A program made the translations under genes and the position numbers. The notes below the pieces were generated by a model. It worked only from the letters and a program-made list of their open reading frames with translations, did not search any database and had not been told where the DNA came from. This document shows, one piece after another, positions 6,112 through 22,657 of a stretch of 34,310 nucleotides of DNA. The stretch is taken from positions 1 to 34,310 of the forward strand of contig JAAYVN010000021.1 in the NCBI GenBank assembly GCA_012517155.1, written 5' to 3'. How positions within the stretch are numbered: position 1 is the first letter of the stretch; the number at the start of each line of letters is the position of its first letter. The stretch is from Ignavibacteriales bacterium. Its GTDB lineage: Bacteria; Bacteroidota; Ignavibacteria; Ignavibacteriales; Ignavibacteriaceae.

Positions 6112-6157
6112 CTAAATAGGTGTGTTTTTTTTAATTTTTAATTTTAGGAATTATCGA

Positions 6158-7978
6158 ATGATACGTGTATTTATTCCTGTTATGTTTGTTCTTATTGCCT
6201 CTTTTTTATTCCCCCAGGCAGGGGCGACGGGTCCTAAATCTAAAACGAAACCGATTGACCTTTCTACGGCTCCAACTTCTAAGAATCTTGGACAATATGA
6301 AGAGTTTGTTAAAACTAATGCTCCTTCGGAGGATGCGTTTGTGGCTATTCAGCGAATTGCGGAGAAATTTATTCAGGACGGAGAATGGGATAAGGCTGCT
6401 GATGTGTTTGGGAATTTCCGTTCTTATTTTAAGGGGATGGAGAAGCGCTTTGAGAAGATGTCTGCCCTGCTGAATGCAGCTAAACAGGACCTGATTGTTA
6501 CTAATCTGGGTGAGGGAATTAACTCCCCTAAATACGGTGAGTATAAACCGAATCCTTCGGCGGACGGATCGTATATGTTTTTTACGAGGGCGGAGAATCC
6601 GGACAATCTGGGGGGTGAGGATATCTGGGTGTCGGAATTCAGTAATGGTAAATGGGGAAAAGCCGAAAATCTGGGAAAGATTATCAATACTAAAGGAAAT
6701 GAGAGTATTAACGCAATTTCCGCGGACGGAAACAGGATTCTTATATTTGGGAATTACTCACAGAGTCTGGGTAACGGAGATATATTTTATTCGGATAAAA
6801 CGCCCGAGGGGTGGAGTAAGGTGAAACATATTGACGAGCCTGTTAACAGCCCGGATTTTGAGTCGGACGCGATGATTACGAGTGACGGGAATGCGCTTAT
6901 TTTTACTTCGGACAGAAAAGGGGGAGTTGGTCCTTATGCGGAAAAAGGAGCTGATGAGCTTTTTCACGGTGATTACTGGGGAAATCTTGACATTTATGTT
7001 TCTCTAAGGGAGGGGGATGAATGGGGAAAACCGATTAATCTGGGACCTACGATAAATACTCCATTTGCAGAGAGGACTGCGTTTCTTCATCCGGACGGGA
7101 AGACGCTCTATTTCAGCTCGGACGGGCATTACGGTTTGGGGCACCTGGATGTGTTTAAGTCTGTGCGTCTGAATGAGAATTCGTGGACTGAGTGGAGCGA
7201 GCCGGTGAATCTGGGGAAGGAGATTAACACGGTTAGCGATGACTGGGGATATAAGGTTGCTACATCAGGTGATCTGGCTTATTTTTCTGCCGTAAGGGAC
7301 GGAGCTTATGACTTGTTTTCGATTACGCTTCCGGCTGAGCTGAGACCTGATCTGGTTGCTACGATACGCGGAAAGGTTACTGATGACAAGGGGAATACGC
7401 TTGAGGCGGATATTGTGTGGGAAGACCTTGGAACGGGAAAGAATGTTGGTCAGCTAAAGAGTGATCCTCAGAAGGGGACGTATTTTATAGCGCTGCCACT
7501 GGGAAAGAATTATGGTTATTATGCTGAGAAGAAGGGGTATTATCCGGTTTCAAAGAATGTGGATTTGAGCGACAAGAGTAAACCGCTTAATATTACGGAG
7601 AATATTGTGCTTGTGTCTATTGAGGAGATGAAGGCACGGGAGCTTTCTGTAAGGATTAATAATATCTTTTTTGATTTTAATAAGTTTGAGCTGAAGCAGG
7701 AATCGTTTACGGAGCTAAACAGGCTTGGTAAGATTCTTAAGGAGAGTGACCTGAAGGTGGAGATTGGGGGACATACGGACTCGAGGGGGAGTGATAAGGC
7801 GAATCTTGAGTTGTCGAAGAAGCGTGCGCAGTCTGTTGTGGATTATCTGGTGTCTGTCGGCGTGAAGAAGGAGAATCTGATTGCCAAGGGATACGGCGAG
7901 ACGAAGCCGGTTAGTGTTACGGATACTGAAGAGGGATATGCTCAGAACCGAAGGGTGGAGTTTAAGTTCGTTAAGTAG
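6158..7978 (+). CDS. PorE-like envelope protein: beta-propeller, regulatory domain, OmpA domain
   Basis: 606 aa from the ATG at 6158. An upstream GTG at 6122 would prepend an implausible stretch, while AGGA lies 8 nt before the ATG. Signal peptide 'MIRVFIPVMFVLIASFLFPQ'. Then come a short helical (TPR-like) segment to about 110; PD40/WD40-type propeller blades about 120-400 ('NPSADGSYMFFTRAENPDN', 'ALIFTSDRKGGVG', 'KTLYFSSDGHYGLGHLDVF'); a carboxypeptidase-regulatory-like beta domain about 405-490 ('ATIRGKVTDDKGNTLEADI'); and an OmpA peptidoglycan-binding domain in the last 110 residues ('FFDFNKFEL', 'GGHTDSRGSDKANLELSKKRA', 'AKGYGETKPV'). This order matches PorE, the OM-associated, peptidoglycan-anchored component of T9SS. 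Unlike PorE it has no obvious lipobox cysteine. A role in anchoring an envelope complex is inference. It is followed by a 9-bp-unit repeat and a terminator. Confidence 0.85.
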   Translation: MIRVFIPVMFVLIASFLFPQAGATGPKSKTKPIDLSTAPTSKNLGQYEEFVKTNAPSEDAFVAIQRIAEKFIQDGEWDKAADVFGNFRSYFKGMEKRFEKMSALLNAAKQDLIVTNLGEGINSPKYGEYKPNPSADGSYMFFTRAENPDNLGGEDIWVSEFSNGKWGKAENLGKIINTKGNESINAISADGNRILIFGNYSQSLGNGDIFYSDKTPEGWSKVKHIDEPVNSPDFESDAMITSDGNALIFTSDRKGGVGPYAEKGADELFHGDYWGNLDIYVSLREGDEWGKPINLGPTINTPFAERTAFLHPDGKTLYFSSDGHYGLGHLDVFKSVRLNENSWTEWSEPVNLGKEINTVSDDWGYKVATSGDLAYFSAVRDGAYDLFSITLPAELRPDLVATIRGKVTDDKGNTLEADIVWEDLGTGKNVGQLKSDPQKGTYFIALPLGKNYGYYAEKKGYYPVSKNVDLSDKSKPLNITENIVLVSIEEMKARELSVRINNIFFDFNKFELKQESFTELNRLGKILKESDLKVEIGGHTDSRGSDKANLELSKKRAQSVVDYLVSVGVKKENLIAKGYGETKPVSVTDTEEGYAQNRRVEFKFVK

Positions 7979-8582: not shown

Positions 8583-8609
8583 GTTATAAACGTTACAGAC
8601 GTTACAAAC
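8583..8609 (-). repeat. 9-bp-unit repeat, locus B (three units), overlapping a stop codon
   Basis: Read on the minus strand: GTTTGTAAC, GTCTGTAAC, GTTTATAAC, then GG. The first unit lies inside the end of the second PorE-like gene; its TAA is the gene's stop codon (8602-8604). Same orientation as the gene. No clear terminator follows. Confidence 0.93.
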
Positions 8610-10350
8610 TATTTTTTATTCTCAGCACCACGCGGCGGTTTTTAGCGCGACCCTCGTTCGTATTATTCGGAGCAACAGGGTCACTCTCGCCATACGCTTT
8701 AACGTCAAAGGAGTCATCCTCCAGCCCGCGTTTTATCAGTTCACCGAAGACAGTCTGCGCTCTTTTGAGGGAGAGTTTTTCGTTGTATTTTTCACTTCCA
8801 ATAGCGTCTGTATAACCCCCAATTTCAATTGTAATCTGACTGTTTTCAGATTGGTTTTTCAGCAGGTTTGCGACATAATCGAGTTTGGGATGGAATGACT
8901 TATCGAGGTTATATTTATTAAACTCAAAGAAGACCGTTATAAGCCCGTCGGAAGTATCAATACGAACCTGATTCTGTGAGATAAGAGTAATATCCTTCCT
9001 GATGTATGAAGCGGTATCGGAATTAAAAGCAAGAGTCAGAAGGACGGGATTATATCCGGAAGCAGATGCTACAATTTTATAATCTGTAAAGGGATCAAGG
9101 GAAATGCGGTACTCCCCTTTTAATGAATCACTTGAAACCTGCAAAACTGAATTGTCAAGCAGTCCGGTAAGAGTTATATCCGCTTTAACCGGTTTTCCGA
9201 GTTCATTTTTTATCAAACCGGAGAGAAGCAGTTGTTTATCAAAATTATAAAAATCATCCGGAAGAATGCAGGAGTAAATATCTTTTGTATTGCTAAAATA
9301 TGCTGTTTTGCCGTCACCGATAATCATGAAACCCCAGTCATCCTCCGGCGAGTTAACAGTATAGCCAAGATTTACAGGTTCAGACCATTCCGTCCAACTG
9401 GATTCGGAAAGGCGTTTTGAAACAAAAATATCCAATCCGCCAAAACCGGTATGTCCGGTTGATGAGAAGAAGAGGTATTTGCCATCGGGAGTCAGGTATG
9501 GTGTCCTTTCGGCCATTTCGGTGTTTATAACCGGACCCAAATTAATTGGTTCCTGCCAGACAGAATCCTTTAAGAGCGAGAGATAAATATCCGTATTCCC
9601 CCAGTAGTCGCCATTATAATGAGTCCCTTTTTCCCGAAAACTCCCCACTCCCCCCGGGCGGTCTGATGTGAAGATCATAATATTATTTTTTACGAGACTT
9701 CCGTCAGAATCGAAATAATTGGAGTTTACAGGAGTTGAAAATTTCTTCAATAAATATTTGCCTGAAGTTGTTTTTTCCGCAAGGAACAGATCTCCGTTAA
9801 CTGATCCCGTATAAAATCCCATAATTATGATCTTCTGCTTATCAGAAGAAATATAAGTGGGCACTTCATTAGATGAGGTATTCAAAGATCTGAGAGGAGA
9901 AACCTCTCCCCAGTCCTTGCCTGTTCTAGAAACATAAAAAATATCCTCTCCACCGCCTCCTCCGTTTCTCCTGTGTGCACAGAAATACATTTCAGAACCA
10001 TCCTCGGAAACCACCGGATGATATTCATCACTGGACAACAAGTTAAGAGATTGCTGATACTCTGATGAGCGTAAGGATGTTTTTGTTTTGCTCAATCTGA
10101 TAAAGCCATTTATCTCTTCTTTTTCCTCCGGAAAGAGGTCCCGGTTCAAACCAATGTACTTTATTGCCCTGTTTCCCTCCCCCTTTTGGATCATTTGCAA
10201 AATGTTGCTTTTCATTTCCCGAAAACTCTTAGGAGAATCCTGATTCTCTTTCGCTGTATTTTGCAAACTGTTAAATGAATATGAATTCTGCGAGTGTACT
10301 AAATTTGTTATTACAAGTAAAACAATTATTAATGATAATTTATATTTCAC
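8602..10350 (-). CDS. Second PorE-like beta-propeller / OmpA envelope protein
   Basis: 582 aa, a paralogue of the product of 6158-7978 with the same layout: signal peptide 'MKYKLSLIIVLLVITNLVHSQ', helical N-terminal segment to about 95, PD40 blades about 100-380 ('HPVVSEDGSEMYFCAHRRNG', 'MIFTSDRPGGVG', 'KYLFFSSTGHTGFGGLDIF'), a CarboxypepD-regulatory-like domain about 385-460 ('LLSGLIKNELGKPVKADITL') and an OmpA domain at the end ('VFFEFNKYNLDKSF', 'IGGYTDAIGSEKYNEKLSLKRA', 'VKAYGESDPV'). The aspartate of 'YTDAIG' and arginine of 'LKRA', which bind the peptidoglycan peptide in OmpA domains, are both present. Convergent to its paralogue. It lies downstream of the terminated envelope operon 10472-17125 on the same strand and is probably its own transcription unit. 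The last codons and the stop fall in the 9-bp repeat. Confidence 0.85.
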   Translation of the reverse strand: MKYKLSLIIVLLVITNLVHSQNSYSFNSLQNTAKENQDSPKSFREMKSNILQMIQKGEGNRAIKYIGLNRDLFPEEKEEINGFIRLSKTKTSLRSSEYQQSLNLLSSDEYHPVVSEDGSEMYFCAHRRNGGGGGEDIFYVSRTGKDWGEVSPLRSLNTSSNEVPTYISSDKQKIIIMGFYTGSVNGDLFLAEKTTSGKYLLKKFSTPVNSNYFDSDGSLVKNNIMIFTSDRPGGVGSFREKGTHYNGDYWGNTDIYLSLLKDSVWQEPINLGPVINTEMAERTPYLTPDGKYLFFSSTGHTGFGGLDIFVSKRLSESSWTEWSEPVNLGYTVNSPEDDWGFMIIGDGKTAYFSNTKDIYSCILPDDFYNFDKQLLLSGLIKNELGKPVKADITLTGLLDNSVLQVSSDSLKGEYRISLDPFTDYKIVASASGYNPVLLTLAFNSDTASYIRKDITLISQNQVRIDTSDGLITVFFEFNKYNLDKSFHPKLDYVANLLKNQSENSQITIEIGGYTDAIGSEKYNEKLSLKRAQTVFGELIKRGLEDDSFDVKAYGESDPVAPNNTNEGRAKNRRVVLRIKNSL

Positions 10351-10471: not shown

Positions 10472-12202
10472 CTAGAAGTTAAACTTAATAATCGGGCTAA
10501 AAATAACCTGAAGATCCTTTGCCCAAGGTTTCAGATCTTCTTTCTTTACAGTTCCGATTGCAACTTTAGTCATGAAACCCCAGGTGTCATTAAATAAGAT
10601 CTCGAAATTTGTACCAAAGTAACCGATACTTCCCTGGAAATCACTATGATATGCAAGTTCTAACTTATAAGTTGTAAATCCGTCATATCTTGCCAAGCCT
10701 GTTTTGATAAAGAAAACATTATGGAAAGCTTTGAAAATATCACTGCTTTTATTCAGGTCTTTCTCTCTGACTTCGATAACCGCGGGATCAAATGTGTATT
10801 CTCGAACATCAACCTGAGCAGCTCCTATTGATGCCTCCCAATAACCGAGGTCGATATTCGGGAATGGCTCAATTGGTTTCGGCAATATTTTGTACTTTTT
10901 CAGTTCATAAGAGAGAAATGACCTGAGTGAGTTGAAAATAAACGGAGTTTTTTCCTTGAAGTTATCTGACTTCCTGTCGTTAATTGACATCTTCCCTTCA
11001 AAAATAAACTCAAAGTCCTTGCCAAATTCATCATTTACTAAACCGGGTATAGGGGTTACGAGTTTTAAATAAACAGCCTGACCTGAATTAACAAAACGCG
11101 TATCTGGTTCGGATTTCTTAAAGACACGTTCAAACGGGAAAGTTATACCAAATGAAGTTGAGACATATTCTCTGTGTTTATCGAATGTATTATCCCTGCG
11201 TGCATATTTCAGACCCAGGTTATACTCATCCATATACCAGCCGAGAAGGGGTATTCTGTCATATCCCCATTGACCGAAAAGAGAGAAATCATGGTAAACC
11301 GGTTTTGATTCTTCAAGTACAGTCTTCTCATCCGGAACACTATAAGTCCTTATTCTGTAAAGGAGATACTCCGGCGAGAATGCGGAAATATAGACTGAGT
11401 TATAAGTCAGTTCGCTTACTGATGGTTCCAGACCCTCGTCAAAAGAAAGCCAATAAACTCTGTTGCCAAGTCTGGTGAACTGATCAGCTGTCAGGACATT
11501 GCGGAAATCCTCAAGGAGGATTCTGTCGTATATTTCGAATCTGTAATCAATAGGAAGTTTGGTTTCAGACTCTCTCAGGAAAGTAATAGCATCAATTTCC
11601 TCGTTGTAAAAGTTTTTCTCAACCAGGATTACGAGTCTAAGTCTCTTAACTAATCTTGAATACTCAACGGTTGCCTGACAACCAAGGTTGAAGAGTTTTT
11701 TGGCAATTTCCAGTTTGCTTGCCACATCAAAAATAAATTGCTGATCAGTAATTAACCATTGTTCTTTGGTTTTGTATTCGCTTTTGATAATAAAATCATC
11801 AAGCAATGATTTCAGACTTACATCGCAGATCTCGAGGCTCTTTTTCCTGAGGAGGATGCTGTAAATTGAGGGGCTTAGTTTTTCATAAAGTGTTAAGCCA
11901 ATTTCATTCTCAATGATTTCAATATCAGGAATTGAGGAACCAGTAACTGATAATTTAATCTGAGTGATTCGTGTGCCATCCTTACTAACTTCGGCAGTAA
12001 TATCCAGATTTGTTTGCGCAAGGAAATCCTCAAACTGATCACTAGAAATTGGTTGATTAGTAGACGTATAGTTGCTGCCTAAAAACTGAAAGCGCTTAAT
12101 TAATTTTTTAATTATCTCATCCTTGTAAGAGTCTGCGGAATAGCTGACAGATGAGAAAAGCGCTAAGCATAACGTTATAATTAAAATACTTTTATTTTTC
12201 AT
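10472..12202 (-). CDS. Unrecognised exported protein with probable C-terminal outer-membrane barrel
   Basis: 576 aa, not assigned to a known family. Signal peptide 'MKNKSILIITLCLALFSSVSYSA'. Residues about 25-290 are mixed alpha/beta with many charged residues ('YKTKEQWLITDQQFIFDVASKL'). From about 310 the sequence alternates polar and aromatic residues in long strands ('YHDFSLFGQWGYDRIPLLGWYM', 'YNLGLKYARRD', 'FKTGLARYDGF'-like segments) and the chain ends '...IIKFNF', with the terminal phenylalanine common in barrels inserted by the Bam machinery. This suggests a periplasmic N-domain joined to an outer-membrane barrel. Last gene of a minus-strand operon (24 nt after the preceding gene) and followed by a strong terminator. 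Confidence 0.75.
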   Translation of the reverse strand: MKNKSILIITLCLALFSSVSYSADSYKDEIIKKLIKRFQFLGSNYTSTNQPISSDQFEDFLAQTNLDITAEVSKDGTRITQIKLSVTGSSIPDIEIIENEIGLTLYEKLSPSIYSILLRKKSLEICDVSLKSLLDDFIIKSEYKTKEQWLITDQQFIFDVASKLEIAKKLFNLGCQATVEYSRLVKRLRLVILVEKNFYNEEIDAITFLRESETKLPIDYRFEIYDRILLEDFRNVLTADQFTRLGNRVYWLSFDEGLEPSVSELTYNSVYISAFSPEYLLYRIRTYSVPDEKTVLEESKPVYHDFSLFGQWGYDRIPLLGWYMDEYNLGLKYARRDNTFDKHREYVSTSFGITFPFERVFKKSEPDTRFVNSGQAVYLKLVTPIPGLVNDEFGKDFEFIFEGKMSINDRKSDNFKEKTPFIFNSLRSFLSYELKKYKILPKPIEPFPNIDLGYWEASIGAAQVDVREYTFDPAVIEVREKDLNKSSDIFKAFHNVFFIKTGLARYDGFTTYKLELAYHSDFQGSIGYFGTNFEILFNDTWGFMTKVAIGTVKKEDLKPWAKDLQVIFSPIIKFNF

Positions 12203-12226
12203 AAATTTTCTACTTTTTAATTATTA

Positions 12227-13720
12227 TTAAAATCCGTAACGTAATCTAAACTGCACAAGCAGACCGCTGTTGGAGTATTCCTCATACTCTTTTTTGACTC
12301 CCAGCACTTTATCCGTCAGGAACATGCTTTCAAGCCGCCCTACAAGTTTTGACTGTCCTAACTGATAGCTAAACAACTGCAACCAGGCACCAACCTTAAA
12401 CTTACTATCAAAGAAGCGGATATTTGCCCCAAGCAAGTAATTTGGTCTCGGCTCGGTAAGCATGTTGTAAGTAACTTCAACGACCGGAAGTACTGTTATA
12501 TTGCTAACTTTTCTGGAACCAATAAAAACATCATTATTGTACTCGGCAGCAAAAACATCATATCCGCCTACACCAAAGTCAAATTTAAGTTTGTGGAACT
12601 CATTGAAGTCCCAGAAGAAAGAGTGGGTAAATTGGAAATCAAAGAAGGAAAAATAAGAATAATCATTAATGATCCCTTTATTAACCTGCTGTGGATCAGT
12701 GTATTTATTGGAAGAAACCGATGCATAAAGGTTGAAATAGAGAGGTGAATTGAAAAAATAGAGATCAAGTACACCGCCACTGTTGCTGTTGAGATTTCCC
12801 TTTTTGACTGATTTGTATAAACCGGCTTCACTTCCTGCAAGAACGTTATTTGTTTTTGCATAAAGCCTGAAGTCCATTCCCCAGTCATTAAGATAACTTG
12901 TTCCGGGAATAACAAATCGTAATCCCCATTTTATATTATCGTTTTGACCAGGCAGGAGAGGGAGAACTTTTTCATTTCGGTTCACATCAGCGGCTATCAG
13001 GAAGTGGTTATTCTCATCTCCGCCAAGGAAGTTTTCAGATAAGAAAGTCCAGTACAAGGTCAACCTGCTTAGGTATGTAAAGTCAACTGTAAACGCAGGT
13101 TTGTTTGTATCTTCCGATCTCTGATAAATAAAAGGATCATTTATCCTTTTTTCTACCAGGAATTTACTTTCTTCAACGTTTTTCGGAGTTGTTGCCGTAA
13201 GAGCAGGATCCTGCGGACCGACAATTTGTTCCCCATAAAGACAAGCAAATACAAAAGCCTCTAGTAATTTATATTCATCAACAGAGGAATTCTTCAAATT
13301 ATAAATTTGCCAGAAGTTAAAGTTCTGCCCGTTTTGATCAGTATCTCTAATCCACAGAATATGCTGAATATCTGCACGTTCTTTGAGGGCAACTCCCGGT
13401 TCCCTATTAACAAAATAGAAACGATAGGTTTTATTTTTGTTAAATCCAAAGAAACGCTGTCCCGAACCTTTATCTACAAGTTTAAGAAACTCATCAGACG
13501 AAAGATCCAGTTTGTCCTTCAACCCTATTGAACTTAAAATCTGATTTATATTATCCAGCTTCTGGGAAGTAAAGGCAACCGGGGCTGAATTGACATCGAT
13601 TTTTAAGTATCTCGTTGAATTTCCTTTTACGTAATCTTCAATCATATCTGATATTGTATATTTATTTTGTCCCAATACCAGGGTTGTAAAGAACAGTGAA
13701 AGTAAAATTATTCTTTTCAT
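12227..13720 (-). CDS. Unrecognised exported protein, probable outer-membrane barrel
   Basis: 497 aa; I do not recognise the family. Signal peptide 'MKRIILLSLFFTTLVLGQ'. Residues about 25-195 are mixed. From about 205 come strand-like segments typical of an outer-membrane barrel ('FTVDFTYLSRLTLYWTFLSE', 'FLIAADVNRNEKV', 'YFNLYASVSSNKY', 'HKLKFDFGVGGYDVF', 'PNYLLGANIRFFDSKF'), and the chain ends '...VQFRLRYGF' with terminal phenylalanine. In size and layout it parallels the next gene (10472-12202), so the operon may encode two barrels of one complex. 16 nt after the 370-aa gene. Confidence 0.75.
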   Translation of the reverse strand: MKRIILLSLFFTTLVLGQNKYTISDMIEDYVKGNSTRYLKIDVNSAPVAFTSQKLDNINQILSSIGLKDKLDLSSDEFLKLVDKGSGQRFFGFNKNKTYRFYFVNREPGVALKERADIQHILWIRDTDQNGQNFNFWQIYNLKNSSVDEYKLLEAFVFACLYGEQIVGPQDPALTATTPKNVEESKFLVEKRINDPFIYQRSEDTNKPAFTVDFTYLSRLTLYWTFLSENFLGGDENNHFLIAADVNRNEKVLPLLPGQNDNIKWGLRFVIPGTSYLNDWGMDFRLYAKTNNVLAGSEAGLYKSVKKGNLNSNSGGVLDLYFFNSPLYFNLYASVSSNKYTDPQQVNKGIINDYSYFSFFDFQFTHSFFWDFNEFHKLKFDFGVGGYDVFAAEYNNDVFIGSRKVSNITVLPVVEVTYNMLTEPRPNYLLGANIRFFDSKFKVGAWLQLFSYQLGQSKLVGRLESMFLTDKVLGVKKEYEEYSNSGLLVQFRLRYGF

Positions 13721-13736
13721 AAGTTATCTTTATTTA

Positions 13737-14849
13737 TTATTGTTTAAAAATTGCAAATAGATCTTTGTTAACCGTCTTGCCGAATGTATCGGTAAATTGC
13801 AGTTTAAGTGTGCAAAGTTTTCCAAGTTGTGAAGCAATAGCTTTTTTATCAACAATTAGGACAAACTCCTTTGCTGACTGACGAGTATCATAAATAAAAG
13901 GTTTCTCATTTAATTCAATTCTCGCCCCTACTGAAGCTATCCCTTGCATTGGGAAAACAAACATACTTCCATTCGGTAGCTCATCTTCATATCTGAATTT
14001 AATTTCAAAGTTACTATCATCGGATAGACTCAGTTCCTTTGGATTGTTTTTACTGTCTGACCAAGTGTGTTTTACAATTAGATTTTCAGGATTGAACCTT
14101 AATTTCGAACTCCATTGGGCTTTTTCTGTAGGAGAATATTGAATTATCTCACCGCGATATTTACCGGTTATAGTAAATACCATATCCCTGTTATCCGGAT
14201 CTGCAAAAATATCGTCGAGTACGACCTGACTACCCTTTTTTTCTTCTGTTTTATCCTTGAACGTAAACTCATAAGAATAATAAGTACTGTCAGGGTTGGG
14301 ATGGTCTTCAAGTCCAACTGCAGCAAAATTCACCGCAAGTTTTGTCCCAATTACATAAAATTCTTCAAGGTTAATAGGAATTGCCATTCTTGGGTACATT
14401 ACCTGCACCTTAAATTCATTATTCCCAAGAATCTTTCTGTCTCCGGGGTAACTGCCATCTGCATTAGCGCAATTTGCACAACTTACAGACGGTCTAAATG
14501 ATATTGTGTAGGTTTTACCTGGCTTTTTAAATAAAATCCTCGCCACACATGAGGCTGGATAGCCCATTCCAAAACTCGTTGTGGTATTAAAACGCGAATT
14601 ATAAAATGGTCTAGCATATACAATTTTAACTTCATTCTCATCCGGCGTTTTTCCTTGTTCATCTTTAATACTTATATTGGAGGGTCCAAAGGTTATTCCG
14701 GTTGTGGGATAGTATACAAGTGGTTCTTCGGGAAGAACTTTATCTGTATAAGGATAAACTGAATAAGTGGGTACCTGCCCAAACATATTCCCTACAAATA
14801 ACAGACAAAGGAAAAGAGTAAATTTAAATAATCGCAAGGTATTTGTCAT
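13737..14849 (-). CDS. Unrecognised secreted beta-rich protein (Ig-like domains)
   Basis: 370 aa. Signal peptide 'MTNTLRLFKFTLFLCLLFVGNMFGQ'. The mature chain is beta-rich and appears built of two or three Ig-like modules: about 30-150 ('GPSNISIKDEQGKTPDENEV', with two CxxC-like cysteines in 'SCANCAN'), about 155-255 and about 260-370. No membrane segment after the signal peptide, so periplasmic or surface. In GldM, the periplasmic part of the T9SS motor, Ig-like domains follow the N-terminal membrane segment in a single chain; here a similar arrangement could be split between this gene and the preceding one. That comparison rests on topology alone. 12 nt after its upstream neighbour. Confidence 0.7.
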   Translation of the reverse strand: MTNTLRLFKFTLFLCLLFVGNMFGQVPTYSVYPYTDKVLPEEPLVYYPTTGITFGPSNISIKDEQGKTPDENEVKIVYARPFYNSRFNTTTSFGMGYPASCVARILFKKPGKTYTISFRPSVSCANCANADGSYPGDRKILGNNEFKVQVMYPRMAIPINLEEFYVIGTKLAVNFAAVGLEDHPNPDSTYYSYEFTFKDKTEEKKGSQVVLDDIFADPDNRDMVFTITGKYRGEIIQYSPTEKAQWSSKLRFNPENLIVKHTWSDSKNNPKELSLSDDSNFEIKFRYEDELPNGSMFVFPMQGIASVGARIELNEKPFIYDTRQSAKEFVLIVDKKAIASQLGKLCTLKLQFTDTFGKTVNKDLFAIFKQ

Positions 14850-14861
14850 GGTTTACTCCAA

Positions 14862-15806
14862 TTAAAAAAGTGATAACCTGATAATAACAGGTATTTTATT
14901 GCTAACTTCGTAATAAAAATCATCTTCATTGGAAAATCCAAGATTTTGTTTCCCTTTGAAGTTTTTATATACTTCTTTTTTAAATTCTTCAAAAGCTTTT
15001 TCTTTTTGAACAGGCTCGTTAATAGAAGCTGTTTTCTCCAGAACCTCATTGGCTTTCTTGACAATTTCATCAACTGCAGAGTTAGAAAGCTCAAACTCAG
15101 GATTAATACCTGTCTTTGTAACGTAATTAGCTAATCGTTCTCCTTCAAGACCGAGAAAAAGCCTTGCAGCAATTGTTTTAAGTATTTTATTCTGTTCTTC
15201 TCTTTTGTCAATACCATATTCAGCTTTAAAATCCTGCCTAACCTTATCAGTCGGTTGCAACAGTTTTTCGAAGAGTTGCTCGGTATTTCTGGGTGCAATT
15301 TCATCCGATAAAATTCTTGGGGTTTTAGAATAGACATAATATTTAAGTATAACATCTCTCCTACCAGTTAAAAGCCCCTTCACATTTCCGGGAACCTCAA
15401 GAAAGAAGGTTTGAACTGTTAATTTGCATTGATCCGCATCTTTTGTAAGATATATTTTCAACTTGTTATCCGATGTTTGTGATGATAACTTGTCGGGAAA
15501 AAAATTTGCCCCGAAGAGATTCCTGCTAGCAGGATCCAGTTCGGCAAAAAATTGGACACTTGCTTTTTCAGTTTCCGAGATTAGTTTAGGAGCAAAAATC
15601 GTATAAGACGACGGAGTAGCTTCTTGAAAACTCACTTTATAGACATTATCGGGTTGATTTGTAGCCACACCCAATTTTTGTATTGCGGTTTTCACTATAG
15701 CATCAAGAGTCAAGCTTTCGACAAGAAGATCTCGTTCGTGAATAACAACTAGTAATTCAGCAATAACCACAAGATAAAGTACAAAGTAAACTATTTTTGC
15801 TTTCAT
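14862..15806 (-). CDS. Single-pass membrane protein with periplasmic domain (GldM-like topology)
   Basis: 314 aa, family not recognised. One N-terminal membrane segment (about residues 5-22, 'IVYFVLYLVVIAELLVVI') with a glutamate, E17, inside it, preceded by two lysines, so the bulk should be periplasmic. The body is alpha/beta, then largely helical from about 200 ('DEIVKKANEVLEKTASINEP'). An AGAGG ribosome binding site lies 8 nt before the ATG. A charged residue in a lone N-terminal helix is a feature of ion-driven motor stators such as GldM, ExbD and MotB, and the preceding gene encodes a polytopic protein also with a buried glutamate. I infer, with modest confidence, that the two form an inner-membrane complex. 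11 nt after the preceding gene. Confidence 0.7.
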   Translation of the reverse strand: MKAKIVYFVLYLVVIAELLVVIHERDLLVESLTLDAIVKTAIQKLGVATNQPDNVYKVSFQEATPSSYTIFAPKLISETEKASVQFFAELDPASRNLFGANFFPDKLSSQTSDNKLKIYLTKDADQCKLTVQTFFLEVPGNVKGLLTGRRDVILKYYVYSKTPRILSDEIAPRNTEQLFEKLLQPTDKVRQDFKAEYGIDKREEQNKILKTIAARLFLGLEGERLANYVTKTGINPEFELSNSAVDEIVKKANEVLEKTASINEPVQKEKAFEEFKKEVYKNFKGKQNLGFSNEDDFYYEVSNKIPVIIRLSLF

Positions 15807-15817
15807 TCTAAAAACCT

Positions 15818-17125
15818 CTATTGATTTGTAATAGGTTTATTTCCGTTATTTCCATCATTAAACTTAACGCCAAGAGTCTGTTTTATCTCCATAATTGTCT
15901 TATTAAAACTGATCAGTTGTTCCTGAAGTTTATTTTCATTTAGCTTCGATGAAATTCCATTAAGGGACTTGCTAATTTTCTCAATTGCGACCGAGAACTC
16001 TGTAACATTTGATGGATCAATGCTGGCAAGTTCTTGTAATCCTGAAGCAAATATGTTTTTTAAGTTTTCAAATTCAATTTTTTTATTAATAATATCGAGA
16101 TATGGGTAATTTCTAGTTGGATTTTCCCTATCCCTATAAATCAACCCCTTTGAGACGTTCGTATTAAGAGTTGCCAGCAAACCTTCCAGTTCGGAAAAAT
16201 CCACTTTAAGGGGTTGATGCTGTGATAATTTAATCAATTCCTTAAAATTATCGATAGATAAAGGTTGACCACTTCTTCCACCCGATTCATCTATCTTAAC
16301 ACTATCCATATTATTTTCTTTTTCATCTTTAAAGAATGTGAAAACAGCTAAACATACTAAGAGGGAAAATTCAAGGAACAAAGCAACAAAAATAACCCAG
16401 AGTGCAAGACTTTTGTCTTCAATAACAAACGATGGAAATGGGAATCCCAATTTTTCAATTTTATTACCCAATCCTCTTAATCCAACCACGATGACTAATA
16501 GCCCAGCACCAAAATAAACTAAACCTGTAATATTATTTTCATATCTGTTTATGTATGAGGTTGTCATTTTATACCCAAGTATTGATAATGACCGCCTCGA
16601 TAATTCTTCGGGATCTCCTTTGATTATATATCTCTCGCCAATAGAATATCTTCTGCGGAGTAGTATACCGTTTATTAAAAAAGTTAGTGAAATTAAAGAA
16701 ATTCCAAGAACAAAAACAATAAGAGTAACTTGCTTGTCAATAATAGTTCCTGTTGCATTTAATACCCATAAGGTAATGGCAGAAATAATCGAACAAATTA
16801 GAAAAAGATACAGAACAAGTTCTGTATAACAAGAGCTTTTAATAAGTTTGTTTAATCTGTCTATTCCATCTTGATTAATCAACAGGTTTTCATCGCTCAA
16901 TTGATTGCCTGCTTTTTCCAATTCGATAATCTTATTTTCACTGAGATTTTCTTTAGTAACATCATCTCTGTCTTTAATTTCCATGAGGAAATTTGTTTTT
17001 AAAATATTGAAGGTTTCCTCTCGCTCGTTATGTACGAACTCCTGTTTAGGAAAATCTTTAAACCTGAGAATTGATTTTTGGATTTCTTCAGGTTTAACAA
17101 TTAATCGGTCACGTGTCCTAAACAT
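15818..17125 (-). CDS. Four-pass inner-membrane protein with cytoplasmic helical tail (GldL-like)
   Basis: 435 aa from the ATG at 17125; a TTG at 17140 would overlap the GGAGGAG ribosome binding site, so it is rejected as start. About 100 charged cytoplasmic residues, then membrane segments at about 102-123, 133-156, 198-217 and 239-265, and a helical, probably coiled-coil cytoplasmic tail to the end. The last helix carries a glutamate (E252 in 'FVALFLEFSLLV'). The third and fourth helices ('VYFGAGLLVIVVGL' and the Glu-bearing helix) recall the two-helix hairpin of GldL, which uses a membrane glutamate for proton flow, and the tail recalls the GldL cytoplasmic helices. The match is by eye and not secure. 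First large gene of the operon. Confidence 0.65.
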   Translation of the reverse strand: MFRTRDRLIVKPEEIQKSILRFKDFPKQEFVHNEREETFNILKTNFLMEIKDRDDVTKENLSENKIIELEKAGNQLSDENLLINQDGIDRLNKLIKSSCYTELVLYLFLICSIISAITLWVLNATGTIIDKQVTLIVFVLGISLISLTFLINGILLRRRYSIGERYIIKGDPEELSRRSLSILGYKMTTSYINRYENNITGLVYFGAGLLVIVVGLRGLGNKIEKLGFPFPSFVIEDKSLALWVIFVALFLEFSLLVCLAVFTFFKDEKENNMDSVKIDESGGRSGQPLSIDNFKELIKLSQHQPLKVDFSELEGLLATLNTNVSKGLIYRDRENPTRNYPYLDIINKKIEFENLKNIFASGLQELASIDPSNVTEFSVAIEKISKSLNGISSKLNENKLQEQLISFNKTIMEIKQTLGVKFNDGNNGNKPITNQ

Positions 17126-17148
17126 ATTTTTCTCCTCCAATATAATAT

Positions 17149-17415
17149 TTAATAATTTGGTTTTCCCTTGAATAAAACAAGTTCATTTTTTAATAAGCTA
17201 AAATTCCCATTACAAACCATAGAAAGATAAACAGCGTATTGACCGATAAAATTGCTATAACAAACCGGATTTTTATTTATAGAAAACCCTTTATTTTTCG
17301 ATATGAAAAAATATTCGGAGTTTAAACGATATATAAGTCCTGTTATTTGGAGTTTTAGAAAAAAAACGGAAAAATACAATATTGCCCTCCGCATAATCGG
17401 TAGATTTGTCGTCAT
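17149..17415 (-). CDS. Possible small protein at the head of the envelope operon
   Basis: 88 aa frame beginning at an ATG with AAAGGA 5 nt upstream, ending 23 nt before the next start. Contains one hydrophobic stretch near the N-terminus ('AILYFSVFFLKLQITGLIY') after two arginines. No family recognised. It might be a small membrane protein, or the stretch may simply be the leader of the operon; the good ribosome binding site and spacing favour a gene only slightly. Confidence 0.35.
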   Translation of the reverse strand: MTTNLPIMRRAILYFSVFFLKLQITGLIYRLNSEYFFISKNKGFSINKNPVCYSNFIGQYAVYLSMVCNGNFSLLKNELVLFKGKPNY

Positions 17416-17498: not shown

Positions 17499-19049
17499 TT
17501 ACGAAAACCAGGCGAAAAATTGCTTTAAAGCACTCCTGGCTTCGGGTTTTATGTAGTAAAAATTGACTCCGCGAGGGGTGACTTCCCAGAATTCTTCCTG
17601 CTCGGTGCCAAAAATTATTCCTTCGATTTTTTTGATTCTTGCAAGAGGTTCAACCTGCATATCACGGAAAATAACCCTTGCTAATTCCTCCTCGCCGTGA
17701 AGAAGGTAATATCCGGCAAGTTTGACTTGCGCAATTCTAACTCCGATAAGGGATACTTCCTTTGCACTTAGTTCCTTTTCCCCTGCTTCAGCCGGTTCGT
17801 CCACCGTGAGGAAAAGATCGAGAAGTTCTTTTATATTGCCGACTTTTTTCTGATGCGCGATTTCATTTATGCGGCAGAGATCGTGGGCAGCGGTTTCGAG
17901 AATAAAGAGTACCTGGTTTTTGTTTGCTTCCTGTCCGTAATACTTGAAATAAACAGATATTTTTTCAACGATCTCGGGAAATTTCGAGAGCATTTCTTCG
18001 GCAATAATCCGGTAATGTTCGAGTGTGTTGAAAGCTGAACGGGGATCTTTATCCCGGATCGAGGCTCGCAGGTAGGAATTGAAGTATTTCAGGCAGTTTT
18101 CAATTGCCCCTTTATCCCCCCATCTGACTGCTTCGATTGTTATCAGTTGTGTGTTGAGCAGGACTCCGCTTGCCACATCACGGAGTTTGGTTTTGGAGTT
18201 GTTGAATATTACTTCGTAAAGACTAAGTATTTTTCTTTCGAGATAGATCTTTTCTTTTTCTATATGGCTAAGGACGAATTCACTGTAGCTGGAAAAGTCG
18301 GGATCAATTTTTTCTTCATCGGTAATTCTGAACCACTCTTTTGGAAGATTGCTTTTTATAGTAAAGTAGTCAACAAGTATTTCCCTTAAGCTGGTAAGAG
18401 AAAGGATGGTGACAGCTCTATCCCCCTGAAATACGGAATTAAGGGCAATATCACCGATGAAATCAATGTCTTCTTTCGTTTTCCGCTTTGTTTTAAGTAT
18501 GCCTTTCAATTCCCCTGGCATGTTTTCTAATTTATTGAGCGCACTGCGGCTTACGTATGCCAGGAAGTTTTCGGGACGGAGGAAGTTGAATATATAATTG
18601 AAGTGAGGAATGACAAATAAAAGTGAAAGTATGATAAGAACAAGCGTGAAGGTTATACTGAAGTAGTTAAGGGAACGCTCGTTTATCGTATTTACTACAA
18701 GTACTGTGTTTATTGATGTTATTACATACAGACTTATTACGGCAACGTTAAAACGGTCACCCACAAAGAGGTCCATTATTTTGGATGAATATTTGTTGGC
18801 GGCTAACTGCACGATAATCGCGATAACTGTTATCTCAATACCAAGGATAGCAACTATCACTTCCCCAAGTCCGCTAAGGGTGTTGGTCAGGTTTCCGATA
18901 TCGGTACTGTAGAGTACGGCAAAGGGATGGACTCCTTCCCTTATCAGGAGGAAGTCAATTCCGCGGAGTATCCCGAAGATGCCTATACTGACAGCGACAA
19001 GAATCAGTAAAGGTTTTAACCAGATTTTTGTGTTAGAAAGTTTTAGCAT
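17499..19049 (-). CDS. DUF2254-like membrane protein
   Basis: 516 aa. N-terminal membrane region with about four segments: 12-33, about 58-83 ('EVIVAILGIEITVIAIIVQL'), about 101-121 and about 130-150. A large soluble, mainly helical domain follows from about 160 to the end. The segment 'LGIEITVIAIIVQLAANKYSSKIMDLFVGDRF' resembles the conserved core of DUF2254 membrane proteins (…SitlvalQLASsqfSPrll…), whose function is unknown. Its start codon lies 4 nt from a 9-bp-unit repeat that occupies its 5' leader, with no normal ribosome binding site (AAACGGAA before ATG). It is not part of the downstream envelope operon by spacing (about 83 nt). Confidence 0.7.
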   Translation of the reverse strand: MLKLSNTKIWLKPLLILVAVSIGIFGILRGIDFLLIREGVHPFAVLYSTDIGNLTNTLSGLGEVIVAILGIEITVIAIIVQLAANKYSSKIMDLFVGDRFNVAVISLYVITSINTVLVVNTINERSLNYFSITFTLVLIILSLLFVIPHFNYIFNFLRPENFLAYVSRSALNKLENMPGELKGILKTKRKTKEDIDFIGDIALNSVFQGDRAVTILSLTSLREILVDYFTIKSNLPKEWFRITDEEKIDPDFSSYSEFVLSHIEKEKIYLERKILSLYEVIFNNSKTKLRDVASGVLLNTQLITIEAVRWGDKGAIENCLKYFNSYLRASIRDKDPRSAFNTLEHYRIIAEEMLSKFPEIVEKISVYFKYYGQEANKNQVLFILETAAHDLCRINEIAHQKKVGNIKELLDLFLTVDEPAEAGEKELSAKEVSLIGVRIAQVKLAGYYLLHGEEELARVIFRDMQVEPLARIKKIEGIIFGTEQEEFWEVTPRGVNFYYIKPEARSALKQFFAWFS

Positions 19050-19704: not shown

Positions 19705-21420
19705 TCAGAGATTCACCGTATTCTTGATTATTTTTTTTCCGGAAAGTTTGAGTAGATCCGGTAAGTTTTTTATAGTTTGGCGATCTTTTTCTTTGGCTTC
19801 TTCGTCCAGTTCTTCATAAGGAATTATATCCGGATGGGTTTTAAGCAAAAGATTCTTCTCTCCCGGAGCATATCGCCATCCATTCAGCAATTTTTCATCC
19901 ATCCACCTGATATGTTCTGCCTTTGCCATTTTTTCAAGCAATTCCTTGTCTTTGGCAGGATCGATTGCCTGAGGCGGATGATTAACCGGAACCAAATCAT
20001 ATCCGAATGAGTTAAGTTTTAATTTTATGTGAAAAGCCTGCTGTCTGTTGGCTTCTTTTAACTCATGCGGAAGGTTATCCCAGTCAACAAGTGTTTTATT
20101 TTGCTCTTTCGTAATTCCGCGTTGAGTTTCGCTCTCAACGTATTTTTGGTGAATAATTTCGGCAATTTTCTCAATTTCTTCATTTACAAGCTGATCATAC
20201 AAACAGGTTTTCTCGTATATATTAAAATATTTTACAGTATTAATCCTTTTTAATAACTCTCCTTCGCTGATAAGCTGTGTGAGATTTGAATTCCTTTGAA
20301 AAGCGACGAATATATTTGATCCGGAACGCAACTGACCAATTTGTTTTACCAGGGAATAACTGAGTACATCGTTTGTTAAGCATATGAAAATCGATTCATA
20401 GTTCCAACTCGACAAATATGTCCGGAAATTATTTATGGTAAGCTTTTCAATTTCAGTTTCTTCATAATCGAGTTCAATAAGTTCATAAATTGAGGGATAA
20501 TCATTTCTGAATGAATTAATTTCTTTTTGTGCATTTTTGTCGATTACCGTCACCAATAATTTGGTTTGGTATGAATAGTGGTGAAGCAGTGCCGCTTGAA
20601 TCAGTATGCTCTTGCCGGTTTTCCCAAATCCCAGCATCATTATTTTCAACTGTTTTTTATCTTCAGAAAAGTCTTTGCTAATGAGGGGATATTCATTTAT
20701 CAGGATTTCACTTCCCCGCTTATAGACATTTACGATTCTGGAGTCTAACATATCGTTGGGTTGCAGAAATATCTGATGTGATTTAAATATTTCCTCTATA
20801 AGCGGTTGATAAATCTGAACATAACACAACACCCGCTTATCCGTTAATCCTGAGCCGAACAAATTATAGATGTTGGTAACTATTTCAATATTCAGTTCAT
20901 CGCTGTCGTTAAGGAGAAAAACAGCTTTGGCTTTTTTTACGCTTGCCTTTCTTAATGCGGTAATATCAGCCGGGTGTTCATTTATCCATATGGTTCCTTC
21001 GGTGCGCAGATTCAGCAAGCTGTGCTGATCAGACCCCGGTTCTATTAGTACAACCTTCATTTTTTTCGACAGAACATCCCTTAGAAGTATTAATGATTTA
21101 TTGCTGAGTCCGCAAATCACAATGTGGTTTTTCAGGAACATCAATCCTAAGTTTTTTTGAAAGAGCCCTACGACTGATTTTATTGTTGCATAAGCAGTGA
21201 TAAGCGGTGCAGCGAATCGGGCTAACTGAAGATAATTGTTGACTAATGGAACAACATCCCCGGACTGCAGAACAAAGAGCTGGATAGAGAGATACATGGC
21301 ATCAAGCAATCCCCTTCCTGCACTTCTGAATCCAATAACACCAATCAGGAAAACTAAAATGGCTGCCAGTCCGATAAGGTGCCACTCATATTCTTTAAGT
21401 CTGAATTTAGACTGTTCCAT
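19705..21420 (-). CDS. Membrane TrkA-N (RCK-like) protein with C-terminal RyR domain
   Basis: 571 aa. Two membrane segments, about 13-31 and 64-86, enclose a stretch 'YLSIQLFVLQSGDVVP' where a two-helix channel would have its pore loop, but there is no TVGYG filter. Then a TrkA-N/RCK-type Rossmann domain begins about 98 ('NHIVICGLSNKSLILLRDVL'), and a second nucleotide-binding segment near 265 has GFGKTGKS ('LKIMMLGFGKTGKSILIQAA'). The C-terminal ~100 residues (about 465-560) form a RyR domain: 'MAKAEHIRWMDEKLLNGWRY', then 'KTHPDIIPYEELDEEAKEKD'. RyR domains in prokaryotes are thought to bind nucleotide-type ligands. It starts 4 nt after the TIR gene, so both are one unit; ion-channel or membrane effector controlled by a TIR-made nucleotide is a reasonable inference, not shown. 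Confidence 0.85.
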   Translation of the reverse strand: MEQSKFRLKEYEWHLIGLAAILVFLIGVIGFRSAGRGLLDAMYLSIQLFVLQSGDVVPLVNNYLQLARFAAPLITAYATIKSVVGLFQKNLGLMFLKNHIVICGLSNKSLILLRDVLSKKMKVVLIEPGSDQHSLLNLRTEGTIWINEHPADITALRKASVKKAKAVFLLNDSDELNIEIVTNIYNLFGSGLTDKRVLCYVQIYQPLIEEIFKSHQIFLQPNDMLDSRIVNVYKRGSEILINEYPLISKDFSEDKKQLKIMMLGFGKTGKSILIQAALLHHYSYQTKLLVTVIDKNAQKEINSFRNDYPSIYELIELDYEETEIEKLTINNFRTYLSSWNYESIFICLTNDVLSYSLVKQIGQLRSGSNIFVAFQRNSNLTQLISEGELLKRINTVKYFNIYEKTCLYDQLVNEEIEKIAEIIHQKYVESETQRGITKEQNKTLVDWDNLPHELKEANRQQAFHIKLKLNSFGYDLVPVNHPPQAIDPAKDKELLEKMAKAEHIRWMDEKLLNGWRYAPGEKNLLLKTHPDIIPYEELDEEAKEKDRQTIKNLPDLLKLSGKKIIKNTVNL

Positions 21421-21424
21421 AATA

Positions 21425-22657
21425 TCAGTAATCTTTTATACAGCGGACGCTAAAGCCATAAGCTTTGTTATTTAACAGCAGGGAAAGACCCCCGGAAGTT
21501 AAGGATGGTTTTAATCTTAACCTGTAAGCGTTTTTATCCCCTTCATCAGAGGAAGACCACAAATAAGCATACTCTCCGAGTCCGCTGAAATCGCCATTAT
21601 AAAGACGATTACCAGACAGTGGGGTGGAAAACAAACCAAATTCTGATTTTATTTCAATTAGATTTCCGCCGTTTTTAATACTAAAGACGCTTTCATCTTC
21701 GTTTACTGCATTAACAATAGATTCTAATTCAAGTATGTCCGGTATATGCCATCCTGCAGGCGCAAGACCCCGGGGATCGTTAACGGCATACCAATTATAT
21801 AACTTACCGATTTTTTTTCCATTCTCAGAATTATTATTGTAATAACACCAGGCACCCTGTTTCTTTTCCCAGTCTTCAGGAGTTTTTGCCTGTGGTATCA
21901 TATCTCCGTTGCGATATGTGTCAACATTCAGGTTTTCCAGCATCCACAGTTGATCACCTTTATTAATTTTTTTTACCGGTATTTGGGTAATAACCTCAGG
22001 CTTAGTTTTTTCTGGGGTTTTCTCATTTTGAAGTTCAAAGACTTTGCGTATATCACTTTTTTGAGAATCAATCCCAGCTATAACTTCATCAGCCATTTCC
22101 CGGTTTTCTTTATCCGGTATTTTTTCTTCTTTAATTGATCCGTCAATATCAGATGAAATTGTTTTAGCCTGGATAAAGGAATCGGGGAGGGGAGCGGATT
22201 TAACCTTGGGGCTTTCACCTAGCACATCAGGAACAATTTTCATAAGTTTGTGCACATAGATTTCATCCGGGAGTTCGTATTTTTTTATTGCCTGTATTGA
22301 ACTTAACATAAGTTTCAATCCGAATTTGAGGACAGCTTCTTCCAGATACATAACAAGAAAGCGTTTATTCTCATCAAATGCGAAATTTATTTCATTTCTG
22401 ACGTTTCTGGAGTTTACCGCTTTTTCCGACATAAACACAATAAACATTGTAGCATCTTTTATAGCATTCTCAATCTCTTCTGACCATTCAGATCCGGGGG
22501 TGATGCCCTCATCATACCAGATTCGAAATCCCATTTTGTTTAATCTAAGAAGTTCCGGAAAAACCAGATCAGAGTCCTTGTGAGAATAGCTTGCAAAAAT
22601 ATAGGGCTCTGTGCCGGTATAGGCAGGGAAAGGGAGTTTTACTTTTTTTTCATCCAT
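21425..22657 (-). CDS. TIR-domain protein with C-terminal FISUMP domain
   Basis: 410 aa, no signal peptide, cytoplasmic. TIR domain about 18-142: 'YIFASYSHKDSDLVFPELLR', 'GFRIWYDEGITPGSEWSEEI', 'ATMFIVFMSEKAVNSRNVRN' and E89 in 'RNEINFAF', at the place of the catalytic glutamate of NAD-cleaving TIRs. A low-complexity linker (about 143-232) follows. Residues 233-410 match the Fibrobacter succinogenes major paralogous (FISUMP) pattern: 'DQLWMLENLNVDTYRNGD', 'GKLYNWYAVNDPRGLAPAGW', 'YLWSSSD', 'YGFSVRCIKD'. FISUMP domains are normally on exported proteins, so fusion to a cytoplasmic TIR is unusual; the fold is thought to be related to C-type-lectin/FGE-like recognition domains. First gene of a two-gene unit with the RyR protein. 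Ribosome binding site weak. Confidence 0.88.
   Translation of the reverse strand: MDEKKVKLPFPAYTGTEPYIFASYSHKDSDLVFPELLRLNKMGFRIWYDEGITPGSEWSEEIENAIKDATMFIVFMSEKAVNSRNVRNEINFAFDENKRFLVMYLEEAVLKFGLKLMLSSIQAIKKYELPDEIYVHKLMKIVPDVLGESPKVKSAPLPDSFIQAKTISSDIDGSIKEEKIPDKENREMADEVIAGIDSQKSDIRKVFELQNEKTPEKTKPEVITQIPVKKINKGDQLWMLENLNVDTYRNGDMIPQAKTPEDWEKKQGAWCYYNNNSENGKKIGKLYNWYAVNDPRGLAPAGWHIPDILELESIVNAVNEDESVFSIKNGGNLIEIKSEFGLFSTPLSGNRLYNGDFSGLGEYAYLWSSSDEGDKNAYRLRLKPSLTSGGLSLLLNNKAYGFSVRCIKDY

Follow-up and report, generated by a model that had tools for sequence, protein, structure and literature searches.

Gene content of the locus

The window analysed here, a stretch of 34,310 nucleotides from an Ignavibacteriales bacterium, carries five closely packed minus-strand genes which are separated, in order from gene 1, by gaps of 11, 12, 16 and 24 nt (span 10472-17140; Table 1). 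The original prediction had counted five or six genes with gaps of 11-24 nt; five of them, with these gaps and on this strand, were confirmed, while the sixth ORF found no better match than E 2.8 among the fetched loci and is probably not a gene. A strong terminator had been proposed as well, and a terminator-like hairpin does lie at the operon end, although such patterns are region-wide no commoner than in shuffles (5 observed vs 7.1 expected). The first reading had recognised none of the five as a known family, and for genes 1-5 no Pfam family reaches its cut-off (three hits of gene 1 stay below threshold) and there are no NCBIfam matches. In the same Pfam and NCBIfam searches of the window contig, no GldK, GldN or adhesin was recognised in the window.

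Upstream of gene 1 a DUF2254-type membrane protein is encoded, which is found at this place in 20 of 37 loci. The PD40-OmpA protein past the terminator resembles PorE, with 172.6 bits against NF052230 (far under the 600-bit cut-off), and in L239, a window-type relative, B2 is followed by a PD40-type gene as well. Judging from its C-terminal domain (TIGR04183, 26.5 bits, cut-off 23), the S8 protease is a T9SS cargo on the same contig; it belongs to the context and lies outside the operon.

Table 1. Positions of the operon genes and neighbouring features in the window
Feature	Position	Strand	Details
S8 protease with T9SS C-terminal sorting domain	22875-26267	-	PF18962 37.5 bits, cut-off 27
DUF2254-type membrane protein, conserved upstream neighbour	17499-19049	-	Pfam PF10011 58.9 bits, cut-off 28.8
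Sixth ORF, probably not a gene	17149-17415	- (as read in the original prediction)	88 aa
Gene 1	15818-17140	-	440 aa; ORF coordinates
Gene 2	14862-15806	-	314 aa; ORF coordinates
Gene 3	13737-14849	-	370 aa; ORF coordinates
Gene 4 (B1)	12227-13720	-	497 aa; ORF coordinates
Gene 5 (B2)	10472-12202	-	576 aa; ORF coordinates
Intrinsic terminator-like hairpin, operon end	10452-10429	-	10 pairs and T tail, 3' of gene 5
PD40-OmpA protein, past the terminator	8602-10350	-	resembles PorE

Conservation of the gene set

A search with gene 1 found 37 named loci, in which gene 2 (36 loci), gene 3 (34), B1 (31) and B2 (30) adjoin in the same order. Since this order recurs over 37 loci, which is more than chance, the gene set is a conserved operon. 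Outside the order, L166 has a 118-aa gene 1 followed by genes 2, 3, B1 and B2. Separate occurrence of the genes in related genomes, which would have spoken against a joint machine, was not observed: when up to five candidates per genome were scored for gene 4, the 8 order genomes with a match all fell within the 9 that have gene 1. The ninth of these (G140) carries genes 1-3 together with another outer-membrane-type protein that replaces B1/B2 (L047; named counterpart L237). Matches were also listed for G232 and G151, but these are interrupted by stop codons and the two genomes are not included among the carriers. The B1 tree joins the window with L239, each on a long branch, which makes their relationship uncertain.

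The putative motor pair

Hydropathy divides gene 1 into four membrane segments (108-126, 138-156, 203-221 and 249-267) with E257 inside the last. This bears out the four-pass protein with a buried E252 that had been described, E252 being E257 counted from an ATG five codons later. The GldL-like core (~186-290) comprises two membrane segments, R222 and E257. E257 is kept in 38/38 aligned rows, so that the GldL feature of two membrane segments with a conserved TMH2 glutamate is present; R222 is likewise kept in 38/38 rows, and lies within the motif that selected the loci. In F. johnsoniae, GldL E49 is needed for motor function, according to the accessible text of PMC8986121. Matches in other genomes cover at most residues 141-323, and no E-value below 1.1 was obtained for residues 1-185 among the fetched loci; as far as can be judged from sequence, the N-terminal extension with two more membrane segments is confined to the window.

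Gene 2 is the anticipated single-pass protein with a buried E17: its one segment spans residues 5-23 of 314 with E17 inside, followed by the periplasmic part. E17 is kept in 36 of 37 rows and an ERD motif (24-26) in all 37. Most members of the family are ~200 aa long, compared with 314 aa for the window copy.

The original prediction saw in these two proteins the topology of GldL/GldM. With full-length profiles, the gene 1 family matches canonical GldL at 80.1% and a score of 44.9 (null: best of 40 block-shuffles 31.5, reversed profile 32.6). After removal of the tails, all comparisons with the canonical proteins fall within the null, taken as the best of 60 block-shuffles: gene 1 against GldL scores 16.0 (null 26.1), the GldL-like proteins of the class 29.4 (30.8), gene 2 against GldM 17.1 (18.7) and the GldM-like proteins of the class 11.6 (20.3). 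The latter match canonical GldM at 24.7%, in a co-linear manner. The curated models are silent: gene 1 has no match to GldL TIGR03513, which is over cut-off in 0/41 relatives including the own genome, and gene 2 has none to GldM TIGR03517, which was not found in G000 and is over cut-off nowhere in the class sample, compared with 70/296 elsewhere in the phylum. What stands is a GldL/GldM-like pair, most likely ion-driven, heading an envelope-spanning operon, but not canonical membership. As to a canonical gldKLMN elsewhere in the genome, proposed as a check, curated GldL and GldM reach cut-off nowhere in the tested order genomes. There is no GldK or GldN family among the five genes either, and GldN profile matches reach at most 8.8%.

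Neither GldL nor GldM was listed, up to an E-value of 5, in PDB-sequence searches with A2, A4 and A6 (the GldM-like profile), and with A7 GldL appeared at 0.13, below coiled-coil noise. Across 59 order genomes A6 gave matches in 4, and in two of these, G140 and G330, the match is the short gene 2. In both loci of the class that were scanned, a GldL-like paralogue adjoins a PorU-type C25 peptidase. The suggested likeness to ExbB/D and MotA/B was not supported: gene 1 has no MotA_ExbB (PF01618) domain and the hhalign comparison of its family gives 0.2%, which rejects ExbB/TolQ/MotA membership. Elsewhere the own genome has two ordinary PF01618 members. A Zorya ZorAB system was rejected as well, since none of genes 1-5 matched a PADLOC-DB family at an E-value of 0.01 or below.

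Gene 3 and the outer-membrane-type proteins

Gene 3 had been called a secreted Ig-like protein, and for the family representative L206 the predicted fold indeed consists of Ig-like domains (mean pLDDT 92.0). The protein is a candidate periplasmic stalk or linker. Fold searches with L206 gave generic Ig and complement-type chains among the matches listed; PorM/GldM is not among the 50 listed in either search, which excludes nothing. We also considered a split GldM, in which genes 2 and 3 together would form one GldM, and found it unsupported: gene 3 matches canonical GldM at 0.6% and the GldM-like proteins of the class at 0.9%. Judged on length, gene 2 does not have the GldM layout of D1-D4 in one ~520-aa chain, and the separate Ig-like chain comes next. 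The gene 3 family profile matches B1 at 47.6% and B2 at 41.9%, a likeness that may reflect shared signal peptides only.

Genes 4 and 5 had been described as two probable barrels ending in Phe. The L206 model of the B2 family has a mixed helix/strand N-terminal part and a beta-barrel (mean pLDDT 82.6, pTM 0.62), and on this fold B2 is predicted to be an outer membrane barrel with such an N-terminal domain and a C-terminal Phe. B1 is a probable outer membrane barrel with an N-terminal periplasmic domain and a C-terminal Phe, as judged from its sequence and from a middling match between the two family profiles (49.5%). The modelled B2 barrel resembles the channels FadL, TodX and OmpG (best Z 13.1; Foldseek TM-scores ~0.2-0.3). 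Neither protein matches a named family, and both have large N-terminal domains. The number of cysteines per column stays at or below 3 for B1 (52 rows) and 2 for B2 (50 rows).

Giant repeat proteins and the T9SS of the lineage

In 11 of the 23 loci with a visible next gene the operon is followed by a giant repeat protein, while 12 of 23 show none there; L219 was excluded because its next ORF is a second B1, and the 11 loci are not independent, L211 and L212 being near-copies. The three giant proteins taken in full have 4,635-5,413 aa and a T9SS sorting domain over cut-off in 3/3. By analogy they are like the SprB-type adhesin. On the window contig no giant T9SS-exported adhesin was recognised.

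SprA was found in the own genome, with no T9SS gene recognised beside it when the gene starts were inspected by eye. T9SS sorting domains occur in 59/59 order genomes tested. Because 46/59 reach at least 81 scored matches, among them 16/17 carriers of the operon and also 30/42 non-carriers, scored counts do not separate the two groups. Loose sorting-domain candidates are more numerous in carriers (median 210 in 17 carriers vs 145 in 42 non-carriers, p 0.003, uncorrected for genome size and kinship). A diverged T9SS core, as originally envisaged, is not supported in the sense of a part needed by every T9SS of the lineage, since in 18 of the 27 order genomes sampled SprA is present and the operon is undetectable. 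In the accessible text of a motility-gene survey, Melioribacter and Ignavibacterium have the PorV-SprA-Plug complex and no other T9SS protein (PMC11705866). I. album is given as non-motile and M. roseus as swimming by flagella in the available part of PMC9318685. Among the matches listed in the literature searched, the text at hand held no description of gliding or adhesin motion in Ignavibacteria.

Possible function of the operon

Taken together, the five genes seem to encode a strongly diverged counterpart of the Bacteroidota proton-driven secretion/gliding motor. Most plausibly the gene 1/gene 2 pair works like GldL/GldM, the T9SS/gliding motor, although family membership is unproven. The inner-membrane motor would consist of gene 1, probably arranged in a ring, and gene 2, probably a dimer, and the buried glutamate of gene 1 would cycle protons. 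From the periplasmic part of gene 2, motion would then be relayed by the Ig-like chain that gene 3 encodes and reach the B1/B2 barrel proteins, whose N-terminal domains would face the periplasm. Because the operon of relatives often runs on into a gene for a giant repeat protein that bears such a sorting domain of the T9SS, the machine would most likely energise the T9SS-linked export of a giant adhesin, its movement on the surface, or both, comparable to GldLM-SprF-SprB in Flavobacterium. We hold with moderate confidence that the operon encodes such an ion-driven, envelope-spanning GldL/GldM-like motor, and our best reading is that of a GldLM-type machine, specific to the lineage, which serves a giant adhesin.

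Other explanations have to be weighed against it. The operon might be the T9SS core motor of the lineage, serving the secretion of all cargo and having no role in gliding. Its head has the same architecture as gldL-gldM, the curated models score over cut-off neither in the relatives (GldL) nor in the class sample (GldM), whereas SprA and numerous sorting domains occur, and carriers are richer in loose sorting-domain candidates; yet most SprA-bearing order genomes sampled do without the operon and at least 81 scored sorting domains are common in non-carriers too, and we regard this explanation as unlikely. We consider it improbable that the genes encode an energiser of the Tol/Ton type, ion-driven and unrelated to the T9SS, for transport through the B1/B2 barrels. 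A motor-like pair combined with barrels would fit such a function, as would the resemblance of B2 to channel proteins (at the low TM-scores given above) and the 12 of 23 loci where no giant adhesin comes next, but there is no similarity to ExbB/TolQ/MotA and in the other 11 loci the giant sorting-domain protein lies directly downstream. Finally, genes 1 and 2 might be merely motor-like and the operon a passive envelope scaffold or tether. The resemblance to canonical GldL does come largely from coiled-coil tails; however, the buried glutamate and the ERD motif are kept in nearly all rows and GldL/GldM-like pairs from other parts of the class match strongly, so that a passive role seems very remote.

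Under the motor reading, the operon may be an unrecognised motor because of its GldL/GldM-like look and because the gene set of relatives often ends in a giant surface protein; it may thus have been overlooked in a lineage reported to have a secretion pore but no motor. The PorV-SprA-Plug complex without other T9SS proteins, as described in the available text of PMC11705866, raises the question of what drives the pore, and the operon is a motor candidate for part of the lineage. For members that lack it, either the T9SS needs no GldLM motor or there are motors that have diverged still further. Given the linkage to the giant sorting-domain protein, these bacteria are predicted to glide or to move their adhesins. 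It might even be, as a tentative and rather less probable extension, that the operon represents a second lineage of T9SS-linked gliding machinery, with a proton-driven motor, a two-chain stalk (membrane protein and Ig chain), paired B1/B2 barrels instead of a GldK/GldN/SprF layer, and an adhesin of 5,000 residues, and that uncultured Ignavibacteria glide or move adhesins.

Comparison with known systems

With MotA/ExbB/TolQ (PF01618) the operon has the logic of an inner-membrane motor in common, but no sequence or profile similarity. Another comparable system is GldL/GldM (PorL/PorM), where a two-segment protein with a conserved TMH2 glutamate and a tail is likewise followed by a single-segment protein with a periplasmic body, and where the gene 1 family shows full-length profile similarity, yet stays below the curated cut-offs. 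Unlike GldM, the gene 2 family is shorter and a separate Ig-like chain is encoded next; unlike in gldKLMN, two barrel-type genes stand at the place of gldN; and unlike GldL, the window's gene 1 carries two additional membrane segments. GldL/GldM-like pairs from other families of the class (L163, L165, L173, L176, L179, L180 and L181) match the gene 1 and gene 2 profiles at 99.3% and 96.2%, respectively, but their second protein is one chain of ~480-510 aa and B1/B2 were not matched in those stretches. According to the accessible text of PMC12635249, SprF of Flavobacterium has a twin-cysteine tail, whereas B1/B2 have no conserved cysteine columns, and SprB is a type B substrate, whereas the sorting domain of the giant proteins is of type A (TIGR04183). 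As in the SprB/SprF arrangement given there, the relatives have outer-membrane-type proteins directly before a giant repetitive sorting-domain protein.

Results

The operon in the window comprises five minus-strand genes (Table) separated by gaps of 11, 12, 16 and 24 nt, with a T-tailed hairpin at the end. None of the products reached the cut-off of a Pfam family or matched NCBIfam. Hydropathy gives four hydrophobic segments in gene 1 (440 aa), one in gene 2 (314 aa) and a signal-like segment at the start of genes 3 and 5; gene 4 has a similar start, judged by eye only. In predicted structures the gene 3 family shows Ig-like domains over residues 21-359, and the B2 family a mixed N-terminal part followed by a barrel resembling FadL, TodX and OmpG (the best match has Z 13.1 over 224 aligned residues at rmsd 4.0; best Foldseek E 2.6e-4, TM-scores about 0.2-0.3). 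Elsewhere in the window, the TIR fusion and the TrkA-N/RyR-domain protein beside it are possibly a conflict or signalling pair.

Table. Positions of the operon genes and their neighbours
Feature	Position	Strand	Description
Gene 1	15818-17140	minus	GldL-like candidate motor protein
Gene 2	14862-15806	minus	GldM-like
Gene 3	13737-14849	minus	Ig-like
Gene 4 (B1)	12227-13720	minus	outer-membrane-type
Gene 5 (B2)	10472-12202	minus	outer-membrane-type
PD40-OmpA protein	8602-10350	minus	downstream of operon; resembles PorE, below cut-off
PD40-OmpA protein	6122-7978	plus	downstream of operon, convergent with the former
DUF2254-type membrane protein	17499-19049		upstream of motor genes, conserved; 49-61% identity in five relatives
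TrkA-N/RyR-domain protein	19705-21420		adjoins the TIR fusion
TIR fused to Fibrobacter-major domain	21425-22657

Used as a query, gene 1 matched 39 of the 296 genomes of the phylum, every one in the class Ignavibacteria, and outside its own genome these matches were confined to residues 141-323 at most. Alignment A2 of gene 1 matched 40 of the 296, among them one genome outside the class (G151) whose match contains stop codons; by A2 the own genome holds a single copy. Within the order Ignavibacteriales gene 1 was found in 9/27 genomes by A2 and, after removal of G232, in 17/59 by alignment A7, and the eight order genomes with a gene 4 match (alignment A1) all lie within those nine.

We picked 37 named loci by a gene 1 match and the motif I[IV]VGLRGLG; they are mostly MAGs, 30 titled Melioribacter(aceae) or Ignavibacteria/-ales/-aceae/-ae and seven other. 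Genes 1, 2, 3, B1 and B2 are present in 37, 36, 34, 31 and 30 loci, the gaps being due to contig ends except in L237, L240 and L241, where a ~300-aa protein of a different family stands in place of B1/B2. In this variant the substitute is outer-membrane-type, and the GldL-like protein has ~350 aa and a long tail. B1 is doubled in 20/37 loci, the second copies forming a single clade, and a DUF2254-type gene (two profiles under one label, separated by length and position) lies upstream in 20/37. Outside the order, one locus carries gene 1 (118 aa), genes 2 and 3, B1 and B2 consecutively (L166, genome G055) and another genes 1 to 3 and B1 (L055, G014).

Gene 1 residue E257 is present in 38/38 rows, as is R222, whose count is biased because it sits within the locus-selecting motif. 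In gene 2, E17 occurs in 36/37 rows (Q in the other) and E24-R25-D26 in all 37. One locus of Melioribacter sp. BM5_bin.15 (L239) is organized like the window, with a long gene 2 (375 aa), a long B2 (574 aa) and then a PD40-type gene; its assembly also holds the common operon type (L236). Since its gene 1 has only 180 aa and the N-terminal 185 residues of the window's gene 1 have no relatives among the fetched loci, this extension is so far particular to the window.

In 11 of the 23 loci with a visible gene after the last B2, a repeat protein starts 8-85 nt further on and extends beyond the locus edge; that of L206 matches all ten others by BLAST. Traced along the same contigs, three measure 5,413 aa (G116), 4,635 aa (G009) and 5,237 aa (G259), all with Por_Secre_tail, the T9SS sorting domain, over cut-off. 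The protein of G300, the fourth one traced, is 3,782 aa long or longer. A second-type B1/B2 pair occurs in 11/11 loci with this adhesin-like protein and in 7/12 without; in L215 it is the sole pair, assigned by tree.

The translocon protein SprA was found in 40 of 41 relatives (39 over cut-off), in 228/296 genomes of the phylum and in 27/27 of the order, and T9SS sorting domains in 59/59 order genomes. Canonical GldL (TIGR03513) was over cut-off in none of the 41 relatives, and canonical GldM (TIGR03517) in 70/296 genomes, none within the class. A survey (PMC11705866) lists PorV, SprA and Plug as found in Melioribacter and Ignavibacterium, and other T9SS proteins as not found.

Profile-profile comparison placed the gene 1 family at 99.3% with GldL-like proteins of the class's other families and, at full length, at 80.1% with canonical GldL (class GldL-like against canonical, 80.9%). 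The gene 2 family reached 96.2% with class GldM-like proteins, which gave 24.7% with canonical GldM in a co-linear alignment. The gene 1 family scored 44.9 against canonical GldL, versus at most 31.5 in 40 block-shuffles and 32.6 for a reversed profile; ExbB/MotA scored 15.4 in this control set. With tails removed (60 shuffles per comparison), scores against canonical GldL were 16.0 for gene 1 (null best 26.1) and 29.4 for class GldL-like proteins (30.8), and against canonical GldM 17.1 for gene 2 (18.7) and 11.6 for class GldM-like proteins (20.3).

In the class's other families, a GldL-like protein of 440-463 aa adjoins one of 1,740-1,938 aa in four loci (L050, L053, L054, L058); both large neighbours scanned (L050, L053) are C25 peptidases of the PorU type. 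Two genomes (G043, G059) hold three distinct GldL-like genes each, pieces of one gene merged, which suggests several motors apiece. In two families elsewhere in the phylum (L092-L095), a short GldM-like protein (380-399 aa), under the curated GldM cut-off, adjoins a GldL-like one; a GldN profile found no match among the neighbours at 1e-4.

Discussion

The best account of the operon is a GldLM-type proton motor that, by way of gene 3 and B1/B2, would drive a giant T9SS protein's export, its movement at the surface, or both. The scattered occurrence of the operon is more in keeping with an accessory trait, for example gliding, than with a universal secretion motor. We found no description of the operon in the part of the literature searched.

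As the full-length profile likeness to canonical GldL has to be read against the tail-less results, our comparison stops short of saying that the two proteins are GldL and GldM. That the gene 1/gene 2 pair works like GldL/GldM is well supported by the sequence comparisons.
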